From an uncultured Poribacteria bacterium (lineage in GTDB: Bacteria; Poribacteria; WGA-4E; WGA-3G): a stretch of DNA of 64,000 nucleotides. The DNA lies in contig OX639992.1 in NCBI GenBank assembly GCA_951828515.1, positions 4,938,217 to 5,002,216 on the forward strand, written 5' to 3'. Position numbers and translations under genes: made by a program. The notes under the pieces were generated by a model, which searched no databases, was not told where the DNA came from, and saw only the letters and a program-made list of their open reading frames with translations. Of the stretch, positions 15,033 through 57,848 are shown in pieces; position 1 is the first letter of the stretch, and each line of letters begins with the position of its first letter.

Positions 15033-15170
15033 TTATAGTAAAGCCCGAAAATACTTGCACGCTCTTGAAAACACAAAACCCACATTGCTGGCGAGGTGTT
15101 TTTGATAGGGCGTTTCCCCCTAACCTCGCCGCATTACAGAGTGTAAACTTAATTATGGGTTTTACTATAA
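15033..15170. mobile_element. MITE-like element, TTTATAGTAAA family (138 bp)
   Basis: The terminal inverted repeats TTATAGTAAAGCCC and GGGTTTTACTATAA match at 13 of 14 positions. There is no coding sequence. Interior words (TACTTGCACGCTCTTGAAAAC, CTGGCGAGG, CCTCGCC) are shared with the copy at 46,279. If the flanking TA is a target duplication, it would fit IS630/Tc1-type mobilisation. Confidence 0.65.
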
Positions 15171-16665: not shown

Positions 16666-18789
16666 ATGTCGCTGGAAAAATGGACAACTATCCAAACTGA
16701 ACATATCCAACGCCTCGCGCACACCCTTGCGGAGCGGGAACTCCTTGCAATCAGGCAACTGGAACCGATAGCGGATTTTGAGGAACTCCTCACGTTTGAC
16801 GAAGCACAACCGACACCTATCGAATTTACACCCCAATATCCTGCATGGCGATTGGAATCGGTCGCCGCACGCATCATTGAGGCGGTCGCGATCGCGGCAT
16901 ACGAACCGCTCACCGAGGTGGGGTACCGCGAACTTGCCCGTATCTTGTTGGAGCACGCGGCGTATCTCTACGCCTATTCAGATGGTGAACCTCGTCCACG
17001 ACTCGAAGCAGGAAGCGCGCTGGCGTTGGCAGGCGGTGTCTGTGCGTCTGTCCCGCAATCAGAGCTCTGGCGGCTTGCTGGTTTCGGAAGGATCTCAGCG
17101 GTGCTGGCAGAGGTCGCACCTGCACCGACAGATTCCCATCTTACTTTGCCAATCGATGTCGCTTTCTCGCTCGCGAATGAGCGAAACCTCCCGATTTTGG
17201 CATCCGCGGTGACCACTTATAACACTGCTCTCAAACGCAACTTCACGGCTCGGAACCAATACAATTTGCCCTTGAGCGATAACGACTTTTTTGACGCGCT
17301 TAATCTGGATTTTCTGGGAATGGAAGCCGTGAAATCTGCCTTCCTCGCAGCAGATGTGCCCGCCGCAAAATCCGCGTATACCGACTTTCGAAGGGAATTT
17401 CTGAATTCACAAGTTGAACATAAATCAATCCCGCTAACAGACAGATCCGACACCTATACGACTGCCAAAACCTACCTCGAATGTCTGCTCAGGCTGTCCA
17501 TCCATCCGACTCCTGCGATCGCAGCGACCACAGAGATAGGGATTGCCGCGCACCTTCTTCCTGAATTCCATGGCAGTGAACAACTTCGCACGCTCGCGCG
17601 CCGTCGCTATAAGTGGATAATAGACGCGTTCTTTCATTCGGATGGATTTCACAAGGATCGGACACTACGCGCTCACATTGAAGCAATTGCTGATTTCGTC
17701 AGATTCCTATCCGTTTACGGAGAACCCACGGAGAATGACGGCTACTTTGAAGAGATACAGACATCACTGAAAAAACAGGTGGAAACATGCCTCCTTTTGC
17801 GACAACCCGATTGTGCGTTTCCACCATTGGGTCCGCTCCCTGCTCCCAATTTCGATGCCGTTGAACTCTGCACGATAGTCGATAACGACTTTCGGCGTGA
17901 GGATTTTCCGACCCCTGATGCCACCTCGCACGCGCTTCCTGAGACGGGTTGCTATGTCATGCGGGACAGTTGGCAACCCGATGCCCAATACCTATTTTTC
18001 GATGCGCACCCATCGGGAGAACCAGGCAACGCGGATACCTCAACTTTCGTGTTATACGCACACGGACGACAATTGACAACAGGTTCCGTCCGCGGGTCTG
18101 ATATGCCGCTATCAGCATCCGATAGGATTGATACACAATGGATAACAACACCTGTATTCGACTTTATTGAAAAATGGCATCAAACGACAACCCTTCACCA
18201 CAAACGCGCCATCTTTTACCTCAAAGGCGAATACTTCATCTGGCATGATCTCGTTCTCGGTGCTGGTGCACACACATTGGAACACGTTTTTCATCTCGAT
18301 CGAGGTACAGCCTCACATATCGCCGCTGATACTGGGTCTGCATGGACACAAGATCCACGCCGTAGCAATCTGTTCATCGGTGCGGTAGGGACAGCCGACC
18401 TCTCGGTAACGTTGGATTCGGACACCGTTGTCTATCGGGGACATCAGGAATCGCCAGTCGTTATGAACACATTGTTGTTTCCTATGAAATCTGAAGTTAA
18501 TTTACATCCGACACTTACCGATATTGAGGTACGCACGGATCCTGATGTCTTAGGGACAGGTTTCACCCTCCAGTCGCACGACACAACGGACACGTTCCTC
18601 ATCTCTGATGATGGTTTAGCGGAGATGTCCGCTGCAGATATTCGGTTTGTCGGTGAATATCTCTTCTTACGGAGGGGTGCCTCCGGTTCAGCCGTTCAAT
18701 TCGTGATGCTGAACGGTCGGTTTTTGGAGGTAGATGGGAACGTCCTTGCCGATTTCGATGAAGCCTGCGAGAGTTATGTGAGGATGTAG
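16666..18789 (+). CDS. Heparinase II/III-like (alginate-lyase fold) protein, histidine motif lost
   Basis: It is a 707-residue protein with an all-alpha N-terminal half (about 1-390) and a beta-rich C-terminal half. The segment GCYVMRDSWQPDAQYLFFDA followed by HPSGEPGNADTSTFVLYAHG is the Hepar_II_III signature. Family members normally have one or two His before the Asp (H-x-H-x-D type); here the sequence is GNAD, without His. There is no signal peptide, so it appears cytoplasmic. Polysaccharide-lyase activity is therefore doubtful; it may be inactive or use another mechanism. AAAGGAC precedes the ATG. Confidence 0.72.
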   Translation: MSLEKWTTIQTEHIQRLAHTLAERELLAIRQLEPIADFEELLTFDEAQPTPIEFTPQYPAWRLESVAARIIEAVAIAAYEPLTEVGYRELARILLEHAAYLYAYSDGEPRPRLEAGSALALAGGVCASVPQSELWRLAGFGRISAVLAEVAPAPTDSHLTLPIDVAFSLANERNLPILASAVTTYNTALKRNFTARNQYNLPLSDNDFFDALNLDFLGMEAVKSAFLAADVPAAKSAYTDFRREFLNSQVEHKSIPLTDRSDTYTTAKTYLECLLRLSIHPTPAIAATTEIGIAAHLLPEFHGSEQLRTLARRRYKWIIDAFFHSDGFHKDRTLRAHIEAIADFVRFLSVYGEPTENDGYFEEIQTSLKKQVETCLLLRQPDCAFPPLGPLPAPNFDAVELCTIVDNDFRREDFPTPDATSHALPETGCYVMRDSWQPDAQYLFFDAHPSGEPGNADTSTFVLYAHGRQLTTGSVRGSDMPLSASDRIDTQWITTPVFDFIEKWHQTTTLHHKRAIFYLKGEYFIWHDLVLGAGAHTLEHVFHLDRGTASHIAADTGSAWTQDPRRSNLFIGAVGTADLSVTLDSDTVVYRGHQESPVVMNTLLFPMKSEVNLHPTLTDIEVRTDPDVLGTGFTLQSHDTTDTFLISDDGLAEMSAADIRFVGEYLFLRRGASGSAVQFVMLNGRFLEVDGNVLADFDEACESYVRM

Positions 18790-18945
18790 GAATAGCGGTC
18801 GGCTATCAGCAGTCAGCGGGTTCGCTGATGCTCACTTTCAGCGGTCAGTAGGGGATCCCTTTAGTTTTTAGAACACCTCGCCTAAAAAAAGGAAACTGAT
18901 AGTTGTTGGAAAACCTTCTTTACTGACGACTGAAAGGTTTTTTGA
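18788..18945. repeat. Palindromic repeat family A copy after the heparinase-like gene
   Basis: It starts just after the stop codon: AGCGGTCGGCTATCAGCAGT, then TTCGCTGATGCTCACTTTCA, and a right part with TTACTGACGACTGAAAGGTT. The centre (AGTTTTTAGAACACCTCGCC) is diverged. Confidence 0.6.
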
Positions 18946-22409: not shown

Positions 22410-22532
22410 TCCTACAGAAGAATAGCCGTCGGGAATCGGAGTTCCCTCCTACAGAAGAATAGCCGTCGGGAATCGGAGTTCCCTCCTACAGAAGAATAGC
22501 CGTCGGGAATCGGAGTTCCCTCCTACAGAAGA
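22410..22532. repeat. 37-bp tandem repeat, 3.3 copies
   Basis: Three identical units (22,410-22,446, 22,447-22,483, 22,484-22,520) are followed by a partial fourth. Each begins TCCTACAGAAGAATAGCCGT and contains the hairpin GGGAA-tcggag-TTCCC. It ends directly at the 3' end of the next gene. Confidence 0.92.
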
Positions 22533-30964: not shown

Positions 30965-31085
30965 TTTATAGTAAAGTTTAGAATTAATTAGACACTCTAA
31001 AGAGGCGAGGATACAATCCTCGCCAGCGGCGGGGCGGGTTGTTTCGCTGAGCAACTGTCTACATATTTTTCGACTTTACTATAAA
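30965..31085. mobile_element. MITE-like element, TTTATAGTAAA family (121 bp, best copy)
   Basis: Its 13-bp terminal inverted repeats are perfect: TTTATAGTAAAGT and ACTTTACTATAAA. The interior holds GAGGCGAGGATACAATCCTC GCC, a second palindrome. It has exactly the same length as the copy at 46,279. There is no coding capacity. It lies directly upstream of the OLD-like ATPase, where it could contribute a promoter or leader. Confidence 0.8.
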
Positions 31086-40803: not shown

Positions 40804-41325
40804 ATGACAAAAACAGAACTCGCGAAACAGATACGTGCTGTTTCATATCTCACAGGAGAATTCGTACTCCGCTCTGGAAATATCAGCAACTTTTATTGGG
40901 ACAAATATCGGTTCGAGAGCCATCCTGCGCTACTCACGGCTATTGCTGAGCAGATGGCGAAATTATTACCATCCGAATGCGATGGATTGGCAGGTTTAGA
41001 ATTAGGGGGGATACCGCTCGCAACTGCCCTCTCGTTGCAAACGGAATTGCCCTGTTTCTACGTACGGAAGGAAGCGAAAACATACGGCACGTGCAACCTC
41101 ATAGAAGGTGGCGTTAAAGAAGGTAGCCAACTCGTTGTCATAGAGGATGTGATTACGACTGCCGGACAGGTCTGCACATCTATTGAGCAGATCCGAGCGG
41201 AGGGATACACGGTGGATCACGTTATAGCCGCCATTGATCGACAGGCAGGTGGTGCTGCCAAGATTAACGCACTCGGGTGTTCGTTCGCATCCGTTTTTAC
41301 GCTTGCCGAGTTAGAAGGAGAATAG
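40804..41325 (+). CDS. pyrE: Orotate phosphoribosyltransferase
   Basis: It joins orotate to PRPP to form OMP in pyrimidine synthesis. It has 173 residues. Visible: SYLTGEFVLRSGNISNFYWD (orotate-binding loop), GLAGLELGGIPLATAL, the flexible active loop FYVRKEAKTYGTCNLIEGG, and the PRPP motif VVIEDVITTAGQVCTSIEQI. It is slightly short of the usual about 200 residues, mainly at the N-terminus. There is no clear ribosome-binding site: a family A array ends three bases before the ATG, which is unusual. Confidence 0.93.
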   Translation: MTKTELAKQIRAVSYLTGEFVLRSGNISNFYWDKYRFESHPALLTAIAEQMAKLLPSECDGLAGLELGGIPLATALSLQTELPCFYVRKEAKTYGTCNLIEGGVKEGSQLVVIEDVITTAGQVCTSIEQIRAEGYTVDHVIAAIDRQAGGAAKINALGCSFASVFTLAELEGE

Positions 41326-41420
41326 CAGTCAGCTATCAGCAGTCAGCAGTCAGTAAGAGACCTCTACTTCATCAGAAATCTCTTTGCTGATGGCTGAAAG
41401 CCGATAGCCGATAGCCATTA
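41324..41420. repeat. Palindromic repeat family A copy, pyrE-ymdB gap
   Basis: AGCAGTCAGCTATCAGCAGT on the left, the core AAGAGACCTCTACTTCATCA with ATCTCTTTGCTGATGGCTGA, and AGCCGATAGCCGATAGCC on the right. It ends 4 bases before ymdB. Confidence 0.75.
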
Positions 41421-41423
41421 AAT

Positions 41424-42200
41424 ATGAAAATACTGTTTATCGGAGATATAGTTGGTAATCCGGGCAGAGTCGCAACAACACAATTTCTGGAAGAACATCA
41501 GGACACATACGACTTCATCGTTGTAAACGGAGAGAACGCCGCCGGTGGCAAAGGGTTAACGTTTGAAATCGTCGACCAACTTTTGGCATCCGGAGTCTCC
41601 GCGATTACAACAGGGAACCACGTTTGGGATAATAGAGAAATTTTCCGTTTCATAGATACAACACCGCAACTGATACGACCTGCGAATTATCCGACTGAGG
41701 TCGCTGGACGCGGCGTAACCATTGTTGCATCCGCTGACGGGCAAACTCAACTCGGTGTCATCAATCTTGCCGGACAGATTTTCATGAGTCCTTACACCAA
41801 TCCGTTTCATGCCCTCAATTCGATTTTGCCTAAAGTGCAAACGGTGACACCGTATATTCTCCTCGATTTTCATGCAGAAGCGACCTCTGAAAAGATCGCG
41901 ATGGGCTGGCATGCAGACGGCAGGGTAGGGGCAGTGATTGGCACGCACACGCACGTTCAAACGGCGGACGCGCGCGTCCTTCCACAAGGCACCGCCTACA
42001 TTACAGACGTTGGTATGACCGGACCCTACGACTCTGTTATCGGCACGCGAACGGATCACGTGCTTGAACGGTTTTTGACCATGATGCCCACCCGTTTCGT
42101 TGTCGCTAAAGGGAACGTCAAACTCTGTGGTGCCGAGATAGAACTTGACGAAGAAACCGGACTGGCAGTGAGTATCACGCCTATCCAGCATCAGTATTAG
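41424..42200 (+). CDS. ymdB: YmdB-type metallophosphoesterase (TIGR00282 family)
   Basis: It has 258 residues. Two-metal phosphoesterase core: GDIVGNPGR (metal Asp), NGENAAGGKGL, TTGNHVWDN (Asn/His), DFHAEATSEKIAMGWHADGR, GTHTHVQTADAR. In B. subtilis the homologue is a cAMP phosphodiesterase that affects sporulation and motility and is found next to rny; no rny gene is here. It is transcribed from beyond pyrE; the gap is filled by a repeat, and the ATG has no good ribosome-binding site. Confidence 0.92.
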   Translation: MKILFIGDIVGNPGRVATTQFLEEHQDTYDFIVVNGENAAGGKGLTFEIVDQLLASGVSAITTGNHVWDNREIFRFIDTTPQLIRPANYPTEVAGRGVTIVASADGQTQLGVINLAGQIFMSPYTNPFHALNSILPKVQTVTPYILLDFHAEATSEKIAMGWHADGRVGAVIGTHTHVQTADARVLPQGTAYITDVGMTGPYDSVIGTRTDHVLERFLTMMPTRFVVAKGNVKLCGAEIELDEETGLAVSITPIQHQY

Positions 42201-42607
42201 AACGGCAATCAGCAATCAGCAGTCGGCAGTCAGTTTCAAATACGTCGGGATTCGGATATCCCTTCTACAGGAGATCAGTCTTGTAGGTTGGGTTGAACGG
42301 GAACTTACTAAAAAACTGTACAACGCCAATGACTTTCAAGTTCATTGAAAAATCTAAAGTACTAAAACACGAGTGAAACCCAACGTGTTATTACACCGAC
42401 AGCGTTTGGTTTGCTGGGGTTCGCTACGTTACCTGTAGGAATCGGCGATTGAAAAGCGGAATGCTCTGGACAAAAAAGAGACGTTTTGATCATTTACCGC
42501 TCAACCTGGGGGAATACCCAAGCAAAAACACATACATCTATAGGGCATTTTATTATCGAACTCACGTTAACAGTAAACATGCGCTGGAGGACTTCCGTTA
42601 CACAGAT
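42201..42607. repeat. Repeat-filled gap: family A half copy, hairpin and TTGGGTTGAACGG element
   Basis: Starting after ymdB: ATCAGCAATCAGCAGTCGGC (half copy), GGGATTCGGATATCCCTTCT (hairpin), then a longer element at about 42,283-42,440 beginning TTGTAGGTTGGGTTGAACGG and containing AAACCCAACGTGTTATTACA and TTGGTTTGCTGGGGTTCGC. It is related to the CGTAGGTTGGGTAGAACGGA element near 19,356. The remainder has an in-frame extension of xseA (from 42,449), which is unlikely to be translated. Confidence 0.6.
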
Positions 42608-46278: not shown

Positions 46279-46399
46279 TTTATAGTAAATCCTAAAAATA
46301 AGTGCACACTTTAGAAACACAAGCACCGTTCCGCCGCTGGCGAGGTTTCTAACCTCGCCTTCCGGTGGATGTATAGTTAATTGTTGACTTTACTATAAA
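46279..46399. mobile_element. MITE-like element, TTTATAGTAAA family (121 bp)
   Basis: Ends: TTTATAGTAAA and TTTACTATAAA, perfect over 11 bp. The interior contains GGCGAGGTTTCTAACCTCGC C. It has the same length as the copy at 30,965, and the left interior (AAATAAGTGCACACTTTAGA) matches that of the copy at 15,033. No coding capacity. Confidence 0.8.
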
Positions 46400-46529: not shown

Positions 46530-47487
46530 ACGGATAGATACCTTTCTGGTAGAACACGGCTTGGTAGAGAGTCGGGAACAGGCGAAACGGCTCATACTTG
46601 CGGGTGCAGTGACCGTCAACGGGAACTCCAGAATAAAGCCGGGGCAGCGCATTTCGTCAGATGCCAAAGTGGTCGTGCAACAGCCGCAAAAATATGTCAG
46701 CCGAGGCGGGTTTAAGTTAGAAAAGGCGTTACGCACCTTTGATATAAACGTCCGAAATCGGGTCGCACTTGATATTGGCGCATCAACAGGTGGGTTCACA
46801 GACTGCCTTCTTCAGCACGGCGCGAAATTCGTCTATGCCATTGATGTCGGTTACGGGCAACTGGCGTGGAAACTCCGCACGCATCCACAGGTGCAACCGA
46901 TTGAGAAAACGAACATCCGACACCTAACGCCAGCACATCTAAAAACAGCGGCATTAAACAGCATAGAAAATGCTGCCTCCATCGCCGTAATCGATGTTTC
47001 CTTCATCTCTTTGAGAACGGTTCTGCCGAGCATCGTCAAACTTCTTACACAGCAAAATAGCGGTCAGCCATCGGTTTCCGTCAGCAATCAGCAAGAGACG
47101 GTAGGTTCACCAGAAAACCTCTTAACCGACAGCCGATGGCTGATAGCCAATCGCTATTACGACCTCATCGCACTGCTGAAACCACAATTTGAAGCCGGTA
47201 AAGCCCATGTGAAAAAAGGTGGAATCGTCTCCGACAAACAGGTACATATCCAGACGATAGATAACCTCAGTGCTTTTGTCACGAAAAAACTCGGAGCCAC
47301 AGTGAGAGGTCTGACCTATTCGCCGATCCACAAGGACATCGGGAATATTGAGTACTTGCTCTGGCTTACAGTCGATGGTGAGCGCATGAATTCCTATCAA
47401 CTCCAGCAAACGACTGCTGAGGTTGTAGAAGCCGCACACGAATCTTTTGGAAGTAACTCTCAGCAACCAGCAGTCAGCGGGTGGTAA
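46450..47487 (+). CDS. tlyA: TlyA-family rRNA methyltransferase with two repeat-encoded segments
   Basis: It is a 2'-O-methyltransferase (TlyA/haemolysin A family) with an N-terminal S4 RNA-binding domain (RIDTFLVEHGLVESREQAKR, LILAGAVTVNG) and a FtsJ-like domain (YVSRGGFKLEKAL, LDIGASTGGFTDCLLQHGA, VDVGYGQLAW-type SAM pocket, IDVSFISLRTVLP, LLKPQFEAG). Residues 201-237 (QQNSGQPSVSVSNQQETVGS followed by PENLLTDSRWLIANRYY) are a family A palindrome inserted in frame between LLT and DLIALLKPQFEAG. The TTG start at 46,450 puts 25 repeat-derived residues first; an ATT at 46,522 with GAGGA upstream would give MKKRIDTFLVEHG, the family-like start. The C-terminus also ends in a repeat. Confidence 0.9.
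   Translation: MGVSSDIRIGRSVPQKRLTEPRGKIKKRIDTFLVEHGLVESREQAKRLILAGAVTVNGNSRIKPGQRISSDAKVVVQQPQKYVSRGGFKLEKALRTFDINVRNRVALDIGASTGGFTDCLLQHGAKFVYAIDVGYGQLAWKLRTHPQVQPIEKTNIRHLTPAHLKTAALNSIENAASIAVIDVSFISLRTVLPSIVKLLTQQNSGQPSVSVSNQQETVGSPENLLTDSRWLIANRYYDLIALLKPQFEAGKAHVKKGGIVSDKQVHIQTIDNLSAFVTKKLGATVRGLTYSPIHKDIGNIEYLLWLTVDGERMNSYQLQQTTAEVVEAAHESFGSNSQQPAVSGW
47050..47160. repeat. Family A palindromic repeat inserted in frame in tlyA
   Basis: It is 111 bases, a multiple of three, without stop codons in the tlyA frame. Left arm AGCGGTCAGCCATCGG, right arm CCGATGGCTGATAGCC: near-perfect complements. The core includes CACCAGAAAACCTCTTAACC, giving the peptide PENLLTD. Flanking protein segments join to a normal TlyA if it is removed. 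Confidence 0.9.
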
Positions 47488-47556
47488 AAGACGTTTTGTT
47501 AGACCGAAAGCAGTAGCCTGCAACATCGGCGCAGGCGGATTTGAGAAAGGGACTTT
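47459..47556. repeat. Repeat copies at the tlyA end/tamB start (families A and B fragments)
   Basis: TCAGCAACCAGCAGTCAGCG provides the last residues and stop of tlyA. AGTAGCCTGCAACATCGGCG + CAGGCGGATTTGAGAAAG is the left half of family B. CTCCGCAAGGTAAAATTAAA, just inside tamB at 47,578, is the end of family C. Three families meet within about 150 bases. Confidence 0.65.
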
Positions 47557-47560
47557 AAAG

Positions 47561-50500
47561 ATGAAAGCTGCGTTATTCCTCCGCAAGGTAAAATTAAAAA
47601 TTTTCATTGGGATATTTCTCATTATCGGGGTGTGTGGAACGCTCTTCTTTATCCAATCAAGAACTTTTCTGGAGTGGGTGGAGGGGCGGCTTGAGACTGA
47701 GCTCAAAAATCGGATAACGGGTGACTACACGGCAAACATCGGCAAAATAGAGGGAAATATCTTAGGAAACGTCAGCATTAAAAGCGTTGAGATTTCCAAG
47801 GAAAACAAACCGGTAATTTCCACAGGAAAAGTCGTACTCAAATACAATCTGTTAGGATTGCTAACCCGGAAATTTGAGGCGACAAAACTGCAGGTGGATA
47901 AAGCGGAAATTCACGCGCGCCGAAACTCCGATGGCGACCTTAATCTCGGACACATTTTTAAGGAGCAGACGACACAAGGTTCCTCACAATTCGGTTTCGC
48001 TGTCGAATCTATTGAATGTAAAGATGGCACAATCGATTACGTTGACCCACAACGCAACTTTGAAGCCCAGATTGATGGGATCTATATTGAAGTGAAAGGA
48101 CCTCTCGACACATGGAAGCATAATGGAACGTTTAAAATTAATAGTGGCAGTTTCAGGATCAACGGTGCCGAAACTGCGATCAACAAGTTTGATGCCGATT
48201 TTCAGATCTTAGCCAGCGGTAGCACATTAGAGAAACTCCGACTGGAATTTGGCGATTCCGATTTGGAGATTACAGGTGGATTTACCCGCAGAGAAACCAC
48301 CACTTCTTGGAACAGCACGCTTGACTTGAGCCTGAATCTCGCAGATGTAGAGCCTTTTTTCGGTGAAGACATCGAACTTGACGGTGATGTTGACGCGACG
48401 TTGACAGTGAACGGTACAAATTCTGCCTTAGCTGGAACACTCTCCGCAAAAATACCGACGTTGGAAATAGCAGTCAGCGATCAGCAGCCAGCAGTCAGTC
48501 ACAAGAGGGTTTTGTTAAACGAAAACCGCTTGACTGAAAACGGACGGTTTCCGATCGAAACCGATAGCCAACTCAAAATTGCGTTGACAGCACTACATGT
48601 TGACGCGAATTTCAACTCTGATCCCTCCCCAACATTCACATTAAAGAAACTCAGTTTCCAAGTCGCCGATGGCACCGTGGTCAGTGATGGAAGCATCGCG
48701 TCAGAAAGCGCGTTGGAAGGCGATCTACTCACGCAACTTCAACAATTCCCAACCCATCCGATTGCTTACCGTGGAAAATGGGACGCTACAGAAATACAAC
48801 TCATACCGCTGCTGTCGATGTTCACCCAATTGCCAGAAAACCTTGTAGATAGCACAGGACGTCTCTCAAGCAGTGGAAGGTTCAACGGACGTAGCAGCGA
48901 TATTACTTCGCTCCTACAAAGTCTCGAACTCGATAGCAAGGTCGTGTTGACAGAGACAATGCTTGACGAAGTTAGATTCAACGATTCAACTTTCAATTGC
49001 ACAATAGCGGCGGGTGAACTAAAAATAGACGGGAACTTGGATGAAACCGAGATTAACGCCAAAGGTCCCTTTCCGTTGAAGCAACAAGATGCTTTGGAGA
49101 TTCGCGCGTCGGGTATCAATATCAGTGACTTGATGAAAATTGCCAATAGTGAGGACATCGGAGGCATCGGAAATTTGTCCGCGAAGTTGTCAGATGGGGT
49201 ATTGAATGGGTTCATGGAAATCCCGAATGCGACCTTCAACGACATCCCACTCGGTGTGTTGGCGGGTAATTTTCGCTATCAAGCGGGGCGGGTGTTCATC
49301 GAAAACGGTCTGATGACGAAAAACACCATAGAAAAGTCGCCAGTTAAAGAGGAACTCGAAAACTCCACAAGTCTGCTGACAACTGACGACCGACGACTGA
49401 TAACTACTAAAACGGAGTATGAAAGTCGGGCAACAATTACGGGGACTGTGGAGGTTAATGGCGACTTCCCAGCGGATTTCAGTGTTATTGCCGACCCCGT
49501 TTACGTCCAACATTACCCAAGACTCTTGTTGGGTGCGGAATATCCGGTGGACGGTGAGATCAGAGGCGAACTCAAATTAAATGGAACACTCGTTAATCTC
49601 GATGGTAGTGCCGACTTCTATGTTACCGAAGGCGTGGCATGGGGTATCCATTTGGATCCGTTGACGCTGCCTCTGGAAATTGAGGATTACAACCTTACGA
49701 TACCGGACTACAAAATAACGACACGTGGGCAACAGGTTACACTCAATGTTGCGGTAGCATCCAATGGCGAATATGACATCCTCCTCGAAAACGACACCCC
49801 CGTCCATTTAGAAGAAATTGCGAAGGCGGCAGACCTCAGCGATTTCCCGTTTGAAGGACTATTCGATGTTCGGGTTGTTGGAACGCTCAAAAAACCCGAA
49901 AGTGCTGCCCCTGAGGTCAGCTGGCGGGTGGAACTCGATTTTTCGGACGTAACCTTCTTGCACAATGAACGCGGCAGGAAATATCCACTCGGTGATGTTT
50001 ATCTGCTCGGCAAACTCGTAGAACGAAAAAATACCACCGGTGAGCCTGACATCTTCGACTTTCAGGGGCATGGATTTGACGGAACAAGTCAGATTCAGGG
50101 TTACGTCAGCATGGCTACGGGGAATCCCTACCAATTCACAGCGGAGAGTGAGGCATTTGATATTGCACGAATCCTGCCTATAGTGCATCCCTTACTTGAG
50201 TCGGTTACAGGGATTGCCGGTGGTGTCGCGTCAATAAGTGGAACGGTAGCAGACCTCGCCCCACCCACCGAGAATATAGCCTCTGAAACCCAATCGTTAA
50301 AAAATCCCTACGATGTAGATATTCTCGTCAGGGAATTAGCAATCAGCCTTCAGCCTTCAGCAGTCAGCAAAGACGCAAGCGTTTCAAGAACGTTTCTTTC
50401 TTTACCGACGGCTGATAGCCAACAGCCGACAGCCACTATCACAAATGCTGAACCGATTCGCTTGCATCTCAAAGATGACAAATGGACAATCGATTCCCTT

Positions 50501-53500
50501 TCCTTAAGGACATCTGAATCAATAAAAGAAGGGCAGCCTGCAACAACGGCGCAGGCAGAGGGTAAGAAAAAATCGTTATTAAACCCATCGCTTGATTTAA
50601 CGCTTAGCGAATCACTAAAAAATCCATTTCTTGAATTGACAGGAACTCTGGATGCCAAAAGTGAGGCGATGAATCTGCACGCGGTATCTGACGGGTTCGC
50701 GCTGGCAGCGTTTGAAGACGTATTGGGGCTCCCGCTTGGTATGCTGCAAGCCGGTGCCCTTCGTTATGACTTGAAAGCCACAGGAACACCCATGCAACCC
50801 AATGTTCAGTTAGAATGGGCAATCCCGACGCTAACATTAGAAACAGAAGCGGGTGATATTGATATCGTCGATGCCGGTGGTGCAATAACATATCAGGAGG
50901 AGACGCTGCGTTTTGAGGATTGTGCTTTCAAACTCTTCGGTAACAACGTGAACGTGGAAGGGTACATTGACGTTCAACCCGAAGAGGTCAACAACTCGGA
51001 ATTACACCTCCGCGTCGATACAATTGCTTTGGATCTCGCGAGTGTGGTTTCCGGTTCGGATTTTTTTTCAAAAAATCCTTTCGGTCATCAGTCCTCAGAC
51101 AAGAGTGGGTTGTTAAACGAAAACCTCTTAACCGACAACCTTAACCATCGACTCGACTCCGATACAACACAGCAAAGCACGAGTCGATGGTTAAAACCGA
51201 CAACTGATGATCAATATATAACCGGGACTTTAGAGGCATCCATAGAGATCGGTGGCACACTCGCTGAGCCTCTTGTTCTACTATACGCTGAAACAGCCGG
51301 GCAACGTCCGATCCGCTTTGCCTCTTATATCCCCTCTATCACGCTGGAGAGACTTCGCGTAGATATTCACTTCGATTCAGAATTTATACGTGTTCAAAGG
51401 GCGGAGGCAAACGGACAGATGGGAGATGGTCCTTATCGTGTCGAAGGAGAAGCCGCGTTCTCACGCCGAAATAGCATTGTCCCGCAAGCCCACACGCGGC
51501 TTGCGTCGCAGTCAGCAGTCAGCAGTCAGTTACAAGACGGGTACGACGAGGAACCTAACACCTCTTTACTGAAAACTGACAGGATTTTTTCGCAGAAAAA
51601 ATCCGCTCTGACAACTGACAACTATTTTAAAATTGATGTGTCGGCATCGCAAGTAGAAATTGGGGACTACGGTTTCGCTTCAGGACATGTTAAGCTTAGC
51701 GGTACAGGCTTAGATCCACAACAGATTACCGTCATTGGTGAAATAAACGAATTGGAACTTGATGGCTACGATTTCCGTCTCACGAACAGGGCACCACTCC
51801 GATTCAGTCTAAACGCCCCTCAAACCCGTGAGGGAAATTCTCTGCGACCTTCCATTCTAACCAAACCCGTAGCTCGTAACGAAGTGGAGAGCGGATACTC
51901 AGAGAGGCATGTCAAACCCCAAATCAGCCCTGTTTCTCCGCAAGGTAAAATTAAAAATCCGCAAGGTGAAATTAAAATACAGATTCCCTTACAACTCACA
52001 TCACCCACGATGACAGCCGCGACGGAGGTCAACGTTGCAGGTACTTTCACCGCCCCTGAAATCACAGCAGACTGGCACGGCACGCTCAATGACAAAGAGT
52101 GGACAGGCAAAATCGAGTACAAAGATGAACGCATAAATATCATCGGGATAGAACTCAAAAACCGGGATGGGACGTTAACGCTTGCAGGTGTGATTCCGTT
52201 TAATCTGACATTTGAAGGGTTGGATATATCTGAGCGATTTCTTGCAGCACCCATCGATATCCGTCTTCGAGGTAGCGAGCTGCCCCTCAACTTTTTCCCG
52301 GGGATTGAGACGGTCTTTGCTGAAGCGGATGGCACTGTTGACATAGATTTGGGGATACAAGGCACAAGTCAATCGTCAGACATGATCGGCAACGTGTTTG
52401 TTGAGGCGTTGCATCTGCGTCTCAAGGACTTTCATGAACCACTCCGAAATACGCAGATACAGTTCAGCGTACGTGAAGAACTAATTAATATCGCAGAGTT
52501 CCGATTTGACATAGCGGAAGGTTCCTGTAGACTTGAACACGGACTGATAGCATTAGACGGCTTAACGCCAGAATACTTGATATTACGAGGATTGAGATTA
52601 GAGCGATTTCCGCTCGGTTCAACTGTACGTCAATCTTTACCGCCGGATTTGTTAGAAGAGACCGAGGGACATATAACAACGACATTGGAGACATTAACAG
52701 TGCCGTTTGACAGTTTCTTAGCAACTGGAGACAGGATGCCATTTCCGCAAGTCCGAAAGATCCCCTCGCTCACCGACCTCGTGGCTGTATCGAATGCGAA
52801 TTTATCCATTGATAGTGTCCGCTTCGCTTTCAAGGCAATGGATCGGTATTATGACTTTCAAAGTTCTCAATCAACGCCGATAGTGCTCAGTGATGGAACT
52901 CTGGCTTTAACGAAAACCTTCATGCTTGAAAATCAAGACGAATTTTCAGTCAAGCAGACCTTTACCGATGAAGATACAAAACCTGAAGGTTTACTTGCCG
53001 ATGAACAAACACTTGATGCCAAGACAACGCTCAGTATTGATGCTGAAAGCGAATGGTCGGTGAACGGGGAATTTGACGGCGCACTTCGGATCAAAAATTT
53101 TGATGTTTCAGCGATAACGGAGACATGGCCCGCACCGTATCGGGTTACCGGTGCGCTGTCGGGAAGTCTACAGATCAGCGGCACGAGTGCGGATCCAAAG
53201 ATAACCGTGCGGCGGCATGAAAGCGAACCCGCTGAGCTCTATCTACACGACATTCCCATTGACCTGCGCTGGAGAATCCGGTATCAGAATGGGAAATGGG
53301 AAATAACGGAAAAAAGGTACGTCGAAATTCGATTTGGGGAAAATCAACTGACGTTCTCATGGATGATGCCTTACGAACTTGAAATTATTCCGTTTCTTAC
53401 GGCACTCCAGCAGACCCCGGAAAAGGTGTGGACGGCACTCCAACAGACCCCGATGCATGGCACTGTGGATATTAAAGTAGAGGATCTCGACATGCTACCG

Positions 53501-54631
53501 TCTGTTGTGCCGGGACTCAGTGCCGCAACAGGCACGAGTGAGCTTCATGTCAAGCTGACAGGGACGATGGAGACTCCAGAAGCCAATGGTCGGGTGCTTT
53601 TCCAAAATATTGGGTTTGAATTCCCAGAGGCTGGTATTCGCGTTGAAGAGATGGAGGGCAAAATTGAGTTATCAGAAACAGGGGCGACTATTCAGCAACT
53701 TGATGGTATCTTGAACGATGGAAAATTTGGGGTTACAGGTGGCATCACAGCCCCACCGGATAAACGAATATGGGAGAAACCGCCGACGTTGAACCTGTCC
53801 ACCGGTCTCACATCAGCGGCTTTTGAACAACAAGGACAGTATCGGATCGAGATCTCTTCCACCTCATTTGGGCTGAAGGGGGAACTTCTTCGTCCCTATC
53901 TAACAGGGAGCCTACATATCAGCGGAGGCTACTATCAACAAAATTGGGAAAGCGTGCGGGATTGGCTCACAGGGGTCTCCGTCAAGGAAACGGAACTTGT
54001 GCTGGATTACCCGATTCTACGTGATTTACATCTCAATGGCGTAGATATTAACATCCCGAACAATTTTCGTGTGCTTTCATCTATCACGGGACCCACAGAC
54101 ATTGAAATCTCCTGCTTAGGTAAACTCTTCGGTCCAATTAATGAGCCGGTTTTCAATGGGAATGTCTCGGTACTCAACGGAAAAATTGGATTCGTTGCAC
54201 AGACCTTTGAATTCCTCGAAGGTTCTCGAATCAGTAACCAGAGTACCGTCGATTTTGATCCGGAACTCAATATTTTTCTCCGCACCCCCAACAGCGTTCG
54301 AGGCGTGTTACCGAGAGATGGAAGCACAGTGGACCTTCAGGTTTACGCCTCCTTTACTGGCACGCTAAGCAACCCGAACTTCATCCTGAACGCGCCCCCT
54401 GAGACGACCACGGAAGTCCTTTCACATGACGATATTATAGATTTTATCTTATACAATGCCGCGCTCTCAGGCGCACTCGGTGGGTTCACTTTTAGTTTCC
54501 ATCGTCCGCTTGATGAAGACGCACGATATATCAGTGCGGAGTACCCACTTGGAAAGAATGTATCCATTAAAATTGAAACGAATGAAAAAAGGGAGCACGG
54601 GATTGACATTGAATTCAAGGGACGTTTCTAA
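47561..54631 (+). CDS. tamB: TamB-like protein (DUF490/TamB C-terminal domain), repeat-expanded
   Basis: It has 2,356 residues from the ATG at 47,561 (AAAGGG upstream; the frame is open to 47,447, but that part is repeat). An N-terminal signal anchor (LKIFIGIFLIIGVCGTLFFI) is followed by a very long periplasmic body of short beta-strands with recurrent GNVSIKSVEI-, GTLSAKIPTLEI- and FNGRSSDI-type segments (AsmA/TamB beta-taco), and a C-terminal TamB domain (VSVLNGKIGFVAQTFEFLEG, DPELNIFLRTP, TLSNPNFILNAPPE, FSFHRPLDEDARYISAEYPL, SIKIETNEKREHGIDIEFKG). TamB-type proteins bridge the inner and outer membranes and move lipids to the outer membrane or assist its assembly. At least seven short repeats are inserted in frame. 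bamA follows immediately. Confidence 0.93.
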   Translation: MKAALFLRKVKLKIFIGIFLIIGVCGTLFFIQSRTFLEWVEGRLETELKNRITGDYTANIGKIEGNILGNVSIKSVEISKENKPVISTGKVVLKYNLLGLLTRKFEATKLQVDKAEIHARRNSDGDLNLGHIFKEQTTQGSSQFGFAVESIECKDGTIDYVDPQRNFEAQIDGIYIEVKGPLDTWKHNGTFKINSGSFRINGAETAINKFDADFQILASGSTLEKLRLEFGDSDLEITGGFTRRETTTSWNSTLDLSLNLADVEPFFGEDIELDGDVDATLTVNGTNSALAGTLSAKIPTLEIAVSDQQPAVSHKRVLLNENRLTENGRFPIETDSQLKIALTALHVDANFNSDPSPTFTLKKLSFQVADGTVVSDGSIASESALEGDLLTQLQQFPTHPIAYRGKWDATEIQLIPLLSMFTQLPENLVDSTGRLSSSGRFNGRSSDITSLLQSLELDSKVVLTETMLDEVRFNDSTFNCTIAAGELKIDGNLDETEINAKGPFPLKQQDALEIRASGINISDLMKIANSEDIGGIGNLSAKLSDGVLNGFMEIPNATFNDIPLGVLAGNFRYQAGRVFIENGLMTKNTIEKSPVKEELENSTSLLTTDDRRLITTKTEYESRATITGTVEVNGDFPADFSVIADPVYVQHYPRLLLGAEYPVDGEIRGELKLNGTLVNLDGSADFYVTEGVAWGIHLDPLTLPLEIEDYNLTIPDYKITTRGQQVTLNVAVASNGEYDILLENDTPVHLEEIAKAADLSDFPFEGLFDVRVVGTLKKPESAAPEVSWRVELDFSDVTFLHNERGRKYPLGDVYLLGKLVERKNTTGEPDIFDFQGHGFDGTSQIQGYVSMATGNPYQFTAESEAFDIARILPIVHPLLESVTGIAGGVASISGTVADLAPPTENIASETQSLKNPYDVDILVRELAISLQPSAVSKDASVSRTFLSLPTADSQQPTATITNAEPIRLHLKDDKWTIDSLSLRTSESIKEGQPATTAQAEGKKKSLLNPSLDLTLSESLKNPFLELTGTLDAKSEAMNLHAVSDGFALAAFEDVLGLPLGMLQAGALRYDLKATGTPMQPNVQLEWAIPTLTLETEAGDIDIVDAGGAITYQEETLRFEDCAFKLFGNNVNVEGYIDVQPEEVNNSELHLRVDTIALDLASVVSGSDFFSKNPFGHQSSDKSGLLNENLLTDNLNHRLDSDTTQQSTSRWLKPTTDDQYITGTLEASIEIGGTLAEPLVLLYAETAGQRPIRFASYIPSITLERLRVDIHFDSEFIRVQRAEANGQMGDGPYRVEGEAAFSRRNSIVPQAHTRLASQSAVSSQLQDGYDEEPNTSLLKTDRIFSQKKSALTTDNYFKIDVSASQVEIGDYGFASGHVKLSGTGLDPQQITVIGEINELELDGYDFRLTNRAPLRFSLNAPQTREGNSLRPSILTKPVARNEVESGYSERHVKPQISPVSPQGKIKNPQGEIKIQIPLQLTSPTMTAATEVNVAGTFTAPEITADWHGTLNDKEWTGKIEYKDERINIIGIELKNRDGTLTLAGVIPFNLTFEGLDISERFLAAPIDIRLRGSELPLNFFPGIETVFAEADGTVDIDLGIQGTSQSSDMIGNVFVEALHLRLKDFHEPLRNTQIQFSVREELINIAEFRFDIAEGSCRLEHGLIALDGLTPEYLILRGLRLERFPLGSTVRQSLPPDLLEETEGHITTTLETLTVPFDSFLATGDRMPFPQVRKIPSLTDLVAVSNANLSIDSVRFAFKAMDRYYDFQSSQSTPIVLSDGTLALTKTFMLENQDEFSVKQTFTDEDTKPEGLLADEQTLDAKTTLSIDAESEWSVNGEFDGALRIKNFDVSAITETWPAPYRVTGALSGSLQISGTSADPKITVRRHESEPAELYLHDIPIDLRWRIRYQNGKWEITEKRYVEIRFGENQLTFSWMMPYELEIIPFLTALQQTPEKVWTALQQTPMHGTVDIKVEDLDMLPSVVPGLSAATGTSELHVKLTGTMETPEANGRVLFQNIGFEFPEAGIRVEEMEGKIELSETGATIQQLDGILNDGKFGVTGGITAPPDKRIWEKPPTLNLSTGLTSAAFEQQGQYRIEISSTSFGLKGELLRPYLTGSLHISGGYYQQNWESVRDWLTGVSVKETELVLDYPILRDLHLNGVDINIPNNFRVLSSITGPTDIEISCLGKLFGPINEPVFNGNVSVLNGKIGFVAQTFEFLEGSRISNQSTVDFDPELNIFLRTPNSVRGVLPRDGSTVDLQVYASFTGTLSNPNFILNAPPETTTEVLSHDDIIDFILYNAALSGALGGFTFSFHRPLDEDARYISAEYPLGKNVSIKIETNEKREHGIDIEFKGRF
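48467..48545. repeat. Family A repeat in tamB (copy 1)
   Basis: Reads GCAGTCAGCGATCAGCAGCC, AGCAGTCAGTCACAAGAGGG, TTTTGTTAAACGAAAACCGC, TTGACTGAAAACGG. Encodes AVSDQQPAVSHKRVLLNENR + LTEN. It is the nearest copy to the intergenic consensus, inside the coding sequence. Confidence 0.92.
49338..49410. repeat. Family A repeat in tamB (copy 2, diverged)
   Basis: CGCCAGTTAAAGAGGAACTC, GAAAACTCCACAAGTCTGCT, GACAACTGACGACCGACGAC, TGATAACTAC. Encodes SPVKEELENSTSLLTTDDRR + LITT. The right arm keeps ACAACTGACGACCGACGACTGATAAC in full. Confidence 0.7.
50337..50440. repeat. Family A repeat in tamB (copy 3)
   Basis: Left arm AGCAATCAGCCTTCAGCCTT CAGCAGTCAGC; right arm GACGGCTGATAGCCAACAGC CGACAGCC. The core is replaced by GACGCAAGCGTTTCAAGAAC. 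Encodes AISLQPSAVSKDASVSRTFL then SLPTADSQQPTA. Confidence 0.8.
50531..50620 (+). repeat. Family B repeat in tamB
   Basis: GGGCAGCCTGCAACAACGGC, GCAGGCAGAGGGTAAGAAAA … CTTAGCGAATCACT. Encodes GQPATTAQAEGKKKSLLNPS followed by LDLTLSESLKN. The minus-strand copy at 46,181 shows the sequence is a dispersed element, not a native part of TamB. Confidence 0.85.
51083..51215. repeat. Family A repeat in tamB (copy 4) with nested 54-bp palindrome
   Basis: The consensus core AAGAGTGGGTTGTTAAACGA and AAACCTCTTAACCGACAAC encodes GLLNENLLTDN. In the right arm is nested TTAACCATCGACTCG (51,141-51,155) with its exact complement at 51,180-51,194. After that the right arm resumes (ACCGACAACTGATGATC). It looks like an insertion inside an insertion. 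Confidence 0.88.
51482..51506. repeat. Short palindrome GCAAGCC…GGCTTGC in tamB
   Basis: CCGCAAGCC-cacac-GCGGCTTGCG lies immediately before family A copy 5, in frame (PQAHTRLA). Confidence 0.5.
51507..51635. repeat. Family A repeat in tamB (copy 5) with nested mini-hairpin
   Basis: CGCAGTCAGCAGTCAGCAGT on the left; core TTACAAGACGGGTACGACGA and CCTAACACCTCTTTACTG; right arm ACTGACA then CTCTGACAACTGACAACTAT. Nested in the right arm: GGATTTTTTC-gca-GAAAAAATCC (51,582-51,604). The frame differs from copies 1 and 4 yet stays open (NTSLLKTD). Confidence 0.9.
51861..51976. repeat. Family C repeat in tamB
   Basis: CCAAACCCGTAGCTCGTAAC, GAAGTGGAGAGCGGATACTC … TCCGCAAGGTAAAATTAAAA, then GCAAGGTGAAATTAAAAT as a duplicated end. 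Encodes TKPVARNEVESGYSERHVKP and SPQGKIKNPQGEIKI. The same family lies upstream of dxs and tlyA. Confidence 0.85.
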
Positions 54632-54770
54632 TTGGCGGTCAGCAATCAGCAATCAGCAATCCGGTACCGACATCGACTGTTATCGTCCTTACGAGGACTC
54701 AAGACATCGTCGACAAGAACCGACTGCCAATCGCCGACTGCTGACCGCTATTTTGCTGATTGCTATCTTA
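54632..54770. repeat. Family A repeat at the tamB-bamA junction
   Basis: Left arm GCGGTCAGCAATCAGCAATC, right arm AATCGCCGACTGCTGACCGC and TTTTGCTGATTGCTATCTTA. It begins at the tamB stop and runs into the bamA signal peptide. Confidence 0.85.
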
Positions 54771-57700
54771 TGGTTTCCCTGTTGCCTTTTTTGGCAATCT
54801 ATAGAAGCACAAGAATCAGATGCATCCAATCAGAAGCGGATTGCAAAGATAGAGTACTATATTGGCACAACCCCTGCGGAGGAAACCCCGGAACACCCCA
54901 ATATACTCAGAAACCAGACGGTCGTATATGCCGGCGATCTACTACTGTCTCGGTACGCCATTCGACAGAGCATTAAAACACTCTACGCGACACAGCGGTA
55001 CTCCCAAATTCAGGTATACTCGCAGGACACTCCTGATGGCATTGTTTTAACCTACCAACTGACCCCTTTCGCGCGCATCCAACGGATTGTGCTCTCCGGT
55101 ATCCCTGAAAACGAAGTCAAAAACGCCATCGAAAATGCGATGAGGTCACAGCCAGGCGGGAAGTATGTGCCTACAATCGTCAAAACCGATGCACAACGCA
55201 TTAAATTGGTCTGTCAAGAGTACGGATATTTCAACGCTAAAGTCTCGACATCCGATGTACTCCACGAAGATGGTACGTTAACTTACCAAATAACCGTCGG
55301 GGATGCGTCAGCCATCAAAACATTGCAGATTCACGGAAATGTTGCTATCTCAACGAATCGCCTTAAAGCGGCTTGTAACTTTAGCCGACTCTCCCCGATT
55401 TACAACAAATCTGCCGTGGATACCGACGTGGCAGCTATGTTAGAACTCTATCGTGAAAACAACTACCCCACTGCGACGATTGTCCCGACCTTTGTCCCTG
55501 AAACCGGTGTGTTACAATTTTACATCAATGAAGGCAAGCAGGTACGCTTTAATTTCGTTGTGAATGTTGGAGAACTCCCGCTATCGCTCCAAGATGCGTT
55601 CAGGGAAGATATAGCTTCTCTAATAAACACCGCCTCCTCTGCTATATGGGAGCGCAGGATAAAATCTTATTTCAAATCCGAGGGCTATCACGACACCACA
55701 GTATCCGAGGAGATACTGGATGCATCCAGTATTCGACTGACGATTAACCCAGGGACGCGTTATGTCGTTAAGGGGGTCACTTTCTTCGGGAACAGGGCGT
55801 TTCCGGCTGCAAAATTGCTACGAGAGATGACAATGAAACCCATAGGTGGATTCCTGCGAAACTTGCAAGCGGACATCACAAGGCGGCTATTTCAACGAGA
55901 ACAGAGACGCTTTTTTTATGAATCAGAACTCGATACAGATATACATCGGCTCAAAATTCTATACGCAAAAGCAGGTTATCCGAAGGCAGGTATCCAGACG
56001 AAACTCGATAAGCAGAATCCAGAAAACCGGAACATTGGTGAAGTTGTGATACATATCACAATAATTGAAGAATATAAAGAGATGATTCACCGGTGCGACA
56101 TCAGCGGGAACAAAGCGTTAGATATCGCTACGCTTTTGGCGCGTTTACAGAGCGAACTTCCATTCCCACAGCCGAATGCCTCGCTTGCCCGGAAAGCCTA
56201 CAGCGACGCAATTTTAAGAGCCTATTACGAGATCGGGTATATTGACGCAGTGGTCAGCGACACGTACATACCAGAAACGGAAGATCCTGTTTTTCGAGTA
56301 ACGGGTAATTTCTCCGTCCCTCTTGAGAGAGGTAGGCTCCCTCTGGAAATCCGAACGGAATTCAAGAGACATAACCTCGCACTCACAGGCGTTTACATAG
56401 CCAGCTATATCGGCAACCGTTGGAGTCTCCAAGACATTGAAGGTAATCCACGGTATACACTTAAACAGGAAAAAACACATCTTGAGGTTTATGAACACGG
56501 AGTCCTGCATCTCACTGTAGATACGGAAGGTGAACAGGTAGTGTTCGGTAAATTCTATTTTGTGGGGGACACAGATGTTGTGAAACAACATGTGCTTGAA
56601 CGGGAAGTATCACACCTTGAAGGGACGCTTTGGACCTCAGAGAAGTTAAGCAGTGCCCTGCAAAATCTCTATAGTTTAGGGCTTTTCCGTAGTGTCCAAA
56701 ATGAACGTTTCTCACAGGCTATCCATAGCACGCAGTTACCCCAATCATCCGAGGCTACAGAGTCTCCTAACCTCCGCCTGCAGAGAATTAACAATGTTTT
56801 AATAACGGTCGAAAAACAGAAACCAAGGACCTACAGTGTGAGCGGTGGTTACAGTTTCGCAGAAGGGCTCCGCGGAACGTTGGCATTAACGGACAGCAAT
56901 CTGCTCTTTAGTCGAAACATCCGAGGACGTGTGCGCAGCAGATTAGGATGGCGAGACGAGTTAGGTTATCTCTTTGATGCAACGCTCACCGAACCGTGGT
57001 TGATTGGACGGACGCGGGGAAGTCTACAGGTATTAGCCAAGAAGTTAGAGGTAGACGATAACGTCCGCGCACTTCAGGGAAGTTTCATCCTCAGTAGGGA
57101 CCTGTCCGAATTGCACCATCTCGATCTACGATATAGTTACCGGGACTTGAATCAGCCTGTCCCATCGATGCCAGAAACACTTGTAGGAGCGAGCTCCAGT
57201 TCGCGATTCCCTGAAGCGCAAAACCCTTTCAACACAACCGTGAGCAGTGTTCGTCTTTCTTGGACGTATGATAGTCGTGTGCGTTATTTGAATCCTACGG
57301 GCGGTATGTTGAACGCGCTGACACTTGAATATGCGGGTGGCTTCTTGCAGGGTGAAACCAGTTTTATTAAGACAACGGCGGATACCCGATATTACCAAAA
57401 ACTTACCGGTGGGCTTGTCTTAGCAACCGCCGTCCGATTCGGGATCACGACGGGGATACACTCTAACCGTCGCGCAGAATTGATTTCCTTCGAGCGGTTT
57501 TGGGCAGGCGGCGGGACAACAGTTCGAGGGTATGCAGAGCGCTCTCTCGGTCCTGAAGATAGCACTGGGATCCATCGCGGCGACGTACAATTCATCTTTA
57601 ACACGGAACTACGTTTCCCAATCTATTGGATGGTCCGCGGTGCGTTCTTTTTTGATACCGGCAACGTCTGGGATTCATTGGAGGATATCGATCCAACAAC

Positions 57701-57848
57701 ACCGCTACCCGCCTCTGTCGGAGCGGGACTTTACTTGGACCTTGGCGCTCTTACGGCTGGAATTGATTATGCGATCCCACTCGTGTCCGCACCGGGTGCC
57801 TTAGATCCATACAGAGCCTTTCACATTCGTCTGGGCAGTACATTTTAA
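54753..57848 (+). CDS. bamA: Omp85-family outer membrane assembly protein (BamA/TamA-like)
   Basis: It has 1,031 residues from a TTG at 54,753. Several POTRA domains fill about residues 30-700 (e.g. RIQRIVLSGIPENEVKNAIE, RYVVKGVTFFGNRAFPAAKL). The C-terminal 16-strand barrel region has SVSGGYSFAEGLRGTLALTD, the family RGY motif TTVRGYAERSLGPED, ELRFPIYWMVRGAFFFDTGN, and ends in Phe as outer membrane proteins do. The signal peptide LLIAILWFPCCLFWQSIEAQ is encoded partly by a family A repeat. The frame is open upstream to 54,456 with no better start, so the exact start is unresolved. It could be BamA or a TamA partner of the adjacent TamB. Confidence 0.92.
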   Translation: MLIAILWFPCCLFWQSIEAQESDASNQKRIAKIEYYIGTTPAEETPEHPNILRNQTVVYAGDLLLSRYAIRQSIKTLYATQRYSQIQVYSQDTPDGIVLTYQLTPFARIQRIVLSGIPENEVKNAIENAMRSQPGGKYVPTIVKTDAQRIKLVCQEYGYFNAKVSTSDVLHEDGTLTYQITVGDASAIKTLQIHGNVAISTNRLKAACNFSRLSPIYNKSAVDTDVAAMLELYRENNYPTATIVPTFVPETGVLQFYINEGKQVRFNFVVNVGELPLSLQDAFREDIASLINTASSAIWERRIKSYFKSEGYHDTTVSEEILDASSIRLTINPGTRYVVKGVTFFGNRAFPAAKLLREMTMKPIGGFLRNLQADITRRLFQREQRRFFYESELDTDIHRLKILYAKAGYPKAGIQTKLDKQNPENRNIGEVVIHITIIEEYKEMIHRCDISGNKALDIATLLARLQSELPFPQPNASLARKAYSDAILRAYYEIGYIDAVVSDTYIPETEDPVFRVTGNFSVPLERGRLPLEIRTEFKRHNLALTGVYIASYIGNRWSLQDIEGNPRYTLKQEKTHLEVYEHGVLHLTVDTEGEQVVFGKFYFVGDTDVVKQHVLEREVSHLEGTLWTSEKLSSALQNLYSLGLFRSVQNERFSQAIHSTQLPQSSEATESPNLRLQRINNVLITVEKQKPRTYSVSGGYSFAEGLRGTLALTDSNLLFSRNIRGRVRSRLGWRDELGYLFDATLTEPWLIGRTRGSLQVLAKKLEVDDNVRALQGSFILSRDLSELHHLDLRYSYRDLNQPVPSMPETLVGASSSSRFPEAQNPFNTTVSSVRLSWTYDSRVRYLNPTGGMLNALTLEYAGGFLQGETSFIKTTADTRYYQKLTGGLVLATAVRFGITTGIHSNRRAELISFERFWAGGGTTVRGYAERSLGPEDSTGIHRGDVQFIFNTELRFPIYWMVRGAFFFDTGNVWDSLEDIDPTTPLPASVGAGLYLDLGALTAGIDYAIPLVSAPGALDPYRAFHIRLGSTF

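Follow-up and report, generated by a model that had tools for sequence, protein, structure and literature searches.

Dispersed palindromic repeats in the start region and predicted signal peptide of a TamB-linked Omp85 gene in Poribacteria

The window analyzed here, a stretch of 64,000 nucleotides from the single-contig genome of a sponge-dwelling Candidatus Poribacteria bacterium, encodes in order an FtsJ-like methyltransferase, TamB, an Omp85 protein and a Yip1-domain protein. The tamB gene (47447-54631 as the longest possible reading frame, forward strand, stop codon TAA at 54629-54631) matches the Pfam TamB model PF04357 with an E-value of 4.6e-13 and a score of 49.6 against a cut-off of 22.4. 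The gene behind it on the same strand encodes a mature protein (54810-57848) with POTRA domains and an Omp85 barrel (PF07244 and PF01103), whose named relatives with the best E-values come from Poribacteria (30-79% identity). The original prediction had called this gene bamA and considered it essential. However, its score of 237.2 against the BamA equivalog model TIGR03303 falls below the curated cut-off of 297.15, which is passed by a second Omp85 protein of the genome (score 398; at ~5.517 Mb, L162:7159-9615), with neighbors that we take, from sequence alone, to be an OmpH/Skp-like gene (skp) and an LpxD-like gene (lpxD). As the protein passing the BamA model is encoded elsewhere, the designation as essential is likewise unsupported. 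The score against the TamA model NF047950 is also low (58.5, under a curated cut-off of 625), so that the gene is TamA-like by position only. It combines Omp85 and POTRA domains with adjacency to tamB, a linkage found at 32 of 33 orthologous loci (the remaining contig begins close upstream of the Omp85 gene). Given its failure to reach the BamA cut-off and the second protein that does, it appears best called a TamB-linked, TamA-like Omp85.

Between the tamB stop codon and the Omp85 gene lies a palindromic repeat that extends from directly after the stop to about 54767, with inverted repeat arms at 54630-54661 and 54722-54753. On the forward strand it can be divided into a 5' arm directly behind the stop (54632-54661), which is built of AGCAATC heptad units, forms one side of the inverted repeat and has many genomic copies, a core (54662-54721), a 3' arm (54722-54752) that includes a first terminal unit, CTGACCGCTATT, at 54741-54752, and a second terminal unit, CTGATTGCTATC, at 54756-54767. 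Both units are exact matches to the motif CTGAYNGCTATY, which with up to one mismatch occurs 34 times in the window against 2.73 expected. Across the genome the terminal motif ACTGCTGACNGCTAT, again with up to one mismatch, has 135 matches as opposed to 2 for a reversed control, which shows that the repeat at this junction is not a product of chance. Copies of the arms are scattered through the genome (at least 36 matches with E <=0.001, 40 of 207 candidates having been scored), while the core gave no further genomic copies at the sensitivity used, the matches covering positions 1-37 or 90-127 of the query. At the 30 of the 135 terminal-motif places that were opened, conservation extends up to and including GCTATT and declines beyond it; leaving aside the window locus, at least 5 of the other 29 have a second terminal unit behind the first, and the same arrangement is seen here. 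Dispersed copies and inverted termini are the features of a MITE or mobile palindromic repeat, and like REP/MITE-type short dispersed repeats the element is palindromic, present in high copy and mostly situated in spacers. We infer its mobility from the differing repeats that occupy one site across species. Only this locus among the 30 opened places continues into an open frame of at least 120 codons; hence, use in a signal peptide is not a general habit of the repeat.

Several other occurrences of repeats were noted. Arms often start in short gene spacers, no more than a few bases from a stop codon (e.g. 18789-18817, 41325-41355 and 42200-42234), and 16 of 23 arm clusters in 464 kb lie outside called open reading frames. 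The heptad family also occurs in frame inside tamB at 48470-48493 and 51508-51530 (AVSDQQPAVSHKR, SQSAVSSQLQ), and the FtsJ-like methyltransferase gene contains, on the minus strand at 47056-47067, an exact copy of the terminal motif, close to the segment SVSNQQETVGSPENLLTDSRWLIANRY. At 22421-22506, in a small tandem array related to the repeat terminus, CCGACGGCTATT occurs three times at a spacing of exactly 37 bases. Another inverted-repeat family, apparently unrelated, is found at 15033-15170, 30965-31085 and 46279-46399; its ends read TTTATAGTAAA / TTTACTATAAA, and its arms are separated by about 60-70 bases.

The ancestral organization of the gene start is visible in a comparison of 33 orthologues from the same genus, the window genome included. 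Outside a clade of eight species (L001-L008), the Omp85 gene starts at an in-frame ATG. In most of these species an n-region (e.g. GSANYNTFIDS or HRLCSNYT) comes next; the hydrophobic core (e.g. VICLILMFCCFF) and the cleavage region (e.g. QSVGAN) follow. These relatives thus preserve the original ATG and n-region (M..SANYNTF..., MHRLCSNYT...). In the clade, which contains the window genome and has support of 100/99 in a 33-row tree and 100/100 in a 12-row tree, both are gone and repeats stand in their place: one kind in L001 and L003, a second in L002 and L004, a third in L005, L006 and L008 and a fourth in L007. Four or more distinct repeat sequences, in five lengths, thus occupy the spacer, and the inserts of L002, L003, L005 and L007 have further copies in their own genomes. 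In two or more further lineages, too, repeats have inserted in frame into this signal peptide. In L024, from outside the clade, the frame runs from an ATG through the repeat into RRLTAI-PCLILMLCC, and the genome has a further copy of this repeat that matches it at 85% identity over 104 bases. In L031 (L031:101-310) the signal peptide contains a 150-base repeat, in frame, which separates MYTSFLNHTSIS from the core; a start at a TTG close to where this repeat ends would also yield a plausible signal peptide. Judged by eye, L022, L019 and L029 look like further cases that retain only short repeat remnants.

In the window genome, the Omp85 frame from 54735 to 54770 spells R L L T A I L L I A I L, and the exact matches of the two terminal units to the repeat motif, translated as LTAI and LIAI, bear out the claim of the original prediction that RLLTAILLIAI is repeat sequence. 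The native remainder of the signal peptide, LWFPCCLFWQSIEA (54768-54809, forward strand), aligns with relatives that have other repeats or none and matches them from LWFPCC to IEA (LWFPCC...IEA). As expected for a Sec signal peptide, a 12-residue core with a hydropathy of 2.88 (LLTAILLIAILW) is followed by IEA before Q, and by rule cleavage is expected before QES. The predicted n-region encoded by the repeat contains the stretches SAISNQQSGTDIDCYR and QEPTANR. The proposal that a repeat replaced or remodelled the secretion signal is thus upheld, in that start and n-region have been swapped and the first hydrophobic residues come from the repeat, with the original state preserved in relatives. 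It would have been undermined by repeat-free orthologues with the same residues, and here the outcome is divided: the second half of the hydrophobic core is common to relatives, but LIAI is absent from the outgroups. LIAI is shared with L003, which has the same element, and with L007, which has another repeat upstream; L005, L006 and L008, nested within the clade in both trees, lack it and carry a native-like VCLIL in its place. Its presence in L007 could speak for a native origin, but the exact match to the repeat terminus makes derivation from the repeat likelier.

Despite this turnover, the reading frame has been kept. The distance from the tamB stop to the Omp85 gene equals 1 modulo 3 in all eight clade members, with lengths to the Cys-Cys pair of 121, 127, 142, 148 and 166, whereas among the 24 further species whose locus includes tamB the phases 0, 1 and 2 occur 9, 9 and 6 times. 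The Omp85 frame is free of stops in all eight members and open from inside tamB, while the other frames of the same inserts contain stops in 15 of 16 readings. For species in which the tamB stop and the Cys-Cys pair are 100 nt or more apart (excluding L030, L032 and L033, which lack the pair, and L031, which lacks tamB on its contig), the frame is open throughout in 8/8 clade members as against 2/14 others (L021 and L024; Fisher 1.4e-4, for species that are not independent). Given their shared ancestry, the inserts of the eight species amount to about four or five independent events; because of this relatedness we treated them as four, and a first-order Markov null, which ignores the composition of the repeats beyond dinucleotides, gives a probability of 1.6e-4 that all four are open, falling to 6e-6 once the phase factor is included.

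The inserts also diverge slowly. In four pairs in which length was kept, three of them sharing species, insert divergence was 5-17% as opposed to 23-34% at fourfold sites of the same gene (each p <1e-3), i.e. 2-4 times less, and when other spacers between same-strand genes in the neighborhood were compared, length was kept in only 1 of 15 comparisons. The insert thus behaves as a conserved part. By codon position, pN and pS are equal in the L002/L004 insert, at about 0.18, a pattern that is not clearly coding, and constraint at the RNA level is possible. In the last 10 tamB codons pS is lowered, but as this is seen in sister species too it is not specific to the clade.

Where translation starts bears on all of these observations. 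The original prediction of no in-frame ATG is correct for the region after the tamB stop. Upstream, however, the frame extends without a stop into tamB, where ATGs (54456, 54513, 54558 and 54582) and TTGs (54573, 54603 and 54609) are available. Only L004, L006 and L008 have an ATG in the interval from the tamB stop to the hydrophobic core; the other five of the eight members lack one, L005 having ATA and L002 ATT where their sisters have ATG. In L004 a stop interrupts the Omp85 frame inside tamB, so any start shared by the clade would have to lie within about the last 20 tamB codons. TTGs 59 and 23 bases before the tamB end are in frame in all eight members. We favor the second of these as the probable start codon, namely the TTG at 54609-54611 (forward strand), which is in frame in 8/8, has a purine-rich stretch nearby and a predicted anti-Shine-Dalgarno duplex of -4.3 to -7.8 kcal/mol, and would yield an n-region of 43 residues with a net charge of +2 ahead of the core of hydropathy 2.88; TTG 54573, ATG 54558, ATG 54582 and TTG 54603 are further candidates. 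None of these tamB-tail codons is peculiar to the clade, for the TTGs are part of the tamB coding sequence and sister species have them too. Nor can starts in this group be told apart by Shine-Dalgarno strength, since the native ATGs of relatives are no better than random positions (median -1.9 versus -2.9). A programmed +1 frameshift out of tamB, giving a fusion protein, was considered and, on sequence alone, rejected, the context in most members being TTC TAA without a slippery repeat.

We therefore weighed several explanations, of which the following is the one we lean towards, as somewhat better than an even prospect when taken as a whole. A dispersed palindromic repeat would have landed directly behind the tamB stop in an ancestor of the eight-species clade, and the TamA-like Omp85 gene downstream would thereby have lost its original start codon together with the n-region of its signal peptide. 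In this proposal, expression would have been rescued because the Omp85 frame, +1 relative to tamB, is open back into the tamB tail; ribosomes would initiate at a start codon there, with TTG 54609 favored, and then read the repeat, giving an n-region of at least 43 aa ending in RR, followed by the repeat-derived LLTAILLIAI and the native LWFPCCLFW. Later the insert would have been overwritten by other repeats or altered in length, only frame-keeping changes surviving. Directly observed are the repeat, its terminal units in frame, the conservation of frame and phase and the slower divergence of the insert; the start codon, the translation itself and the secretion of the product are what we infer in this scheme. 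Signal peptides with n-regions of more than 40 aa are unusual, which counts against a start in the tamB tail. Alternatively, translation may begin, as originally predicted, at the TTG within the repeat (54753-54755, forward strand), whereby only LIAI of the precursor would be repeat-derived and the upstream repeat would be an untranslated leader. The core so predicted is still hydrophobic (2.52), though uncharged; short signal peptides with almost no n-region exist in L019 (MTYFILFLCC...) and L029 (MIYFILLLCC...); and the 24 native ATGs of relatives often have no Shine-Dalgarno match (median -1.9 kcal/mol). Yet the anti-Shine-Dalgarno duplex at this codon is weak (-0.7), the codon is TCG in L003, which has the same element, and ATA in L007, and a start there leaves the conserved phase, the open frame and the slow upstream divergence without a reason; we regard it as an unlikely, if serious, alternative.

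Conservation of frame and phase might instead be a by-product of shared ancestry or of a constraint on RNA structure, the true start being local and different in each species. Well-placed ATGs in L004, L006 and L008 fit this explanation, as does the slowness of the inserts at all codon positions, which an RNA constraint would give; but a single phase has been kept by five lengths from at least four repeat sequences, and gain or loss of heptad units would shift the frame, so that we judge it improbable. The absence of an ATG after the tamB stop in the window genome could even suggest a start lost through a sequencing indel, or a pseudogene. This we think very improbable, as eight separate genomes share the phase and the Omp85 gene is full length and under purifying selection (dN/dS 0.14-0.25 across 28 pairs). 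For the genus, we suggest tentatively, and with rather less assurance than for the explanation favored above, that the tamB-Omp85 junction may be a hot spot at which palindromic repeats swap in start regions and signal-peptide fronts, and that in one clade the Omp85 gene may start inside tamB, as a repeat-made gene overlap with an extended signal peptide kept by selection.

This kind of event has been known from Yersinia since 2007: a Yersinia palindromic sequence (YAPL, RU-2) is described as part of the predicted YPO1552 signal peptide, and it was suggested that RU-2 fusions may create exported proteins (Delihas 2007, PMC2759123, PMC2229807). YPO1552, as described there, is a small putative exported protein, whereas the Poribacteria locus involves a conserved Omp85 with many orthologues and, unlike the Yersinia case, displays the state before insertion, the successive replacement of one repeat by another and a reading frame that was maintained. 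The Rickettsia palindromic elements (RPE; Ogata 2000 as cited in PMC2759123) are, in that summary, likewise dispersed palindromes in frame in coding genes, and the in-frame insertions within tamB in the window resemble them; the insert at the Omp85 gene, by contrast, occupies the gene start and signal peptide. No account of these repeats in Poribacteria was found in the literature searched, PMC3909097 having been checked for five words. What appears to be new is the involvement of a conserved Omp85, the visibility of ancestral states, the exchange of several repeats at a single site and the evidence that the frame was maintained by selection, and the evolutionary support is stronger here than for the Yersinia case.

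The n-region of a signal peptide is generally regarded as open to almost any sequence. The locus offers a natural test of this tolerance, with different repeats fronting one conserved outer-membrane protein and with the states before and after both present in living relatives. Automatic start calls may err in such repeat-rich symbiont genomes, and selfish DNA could supply start regions and secretion signals.
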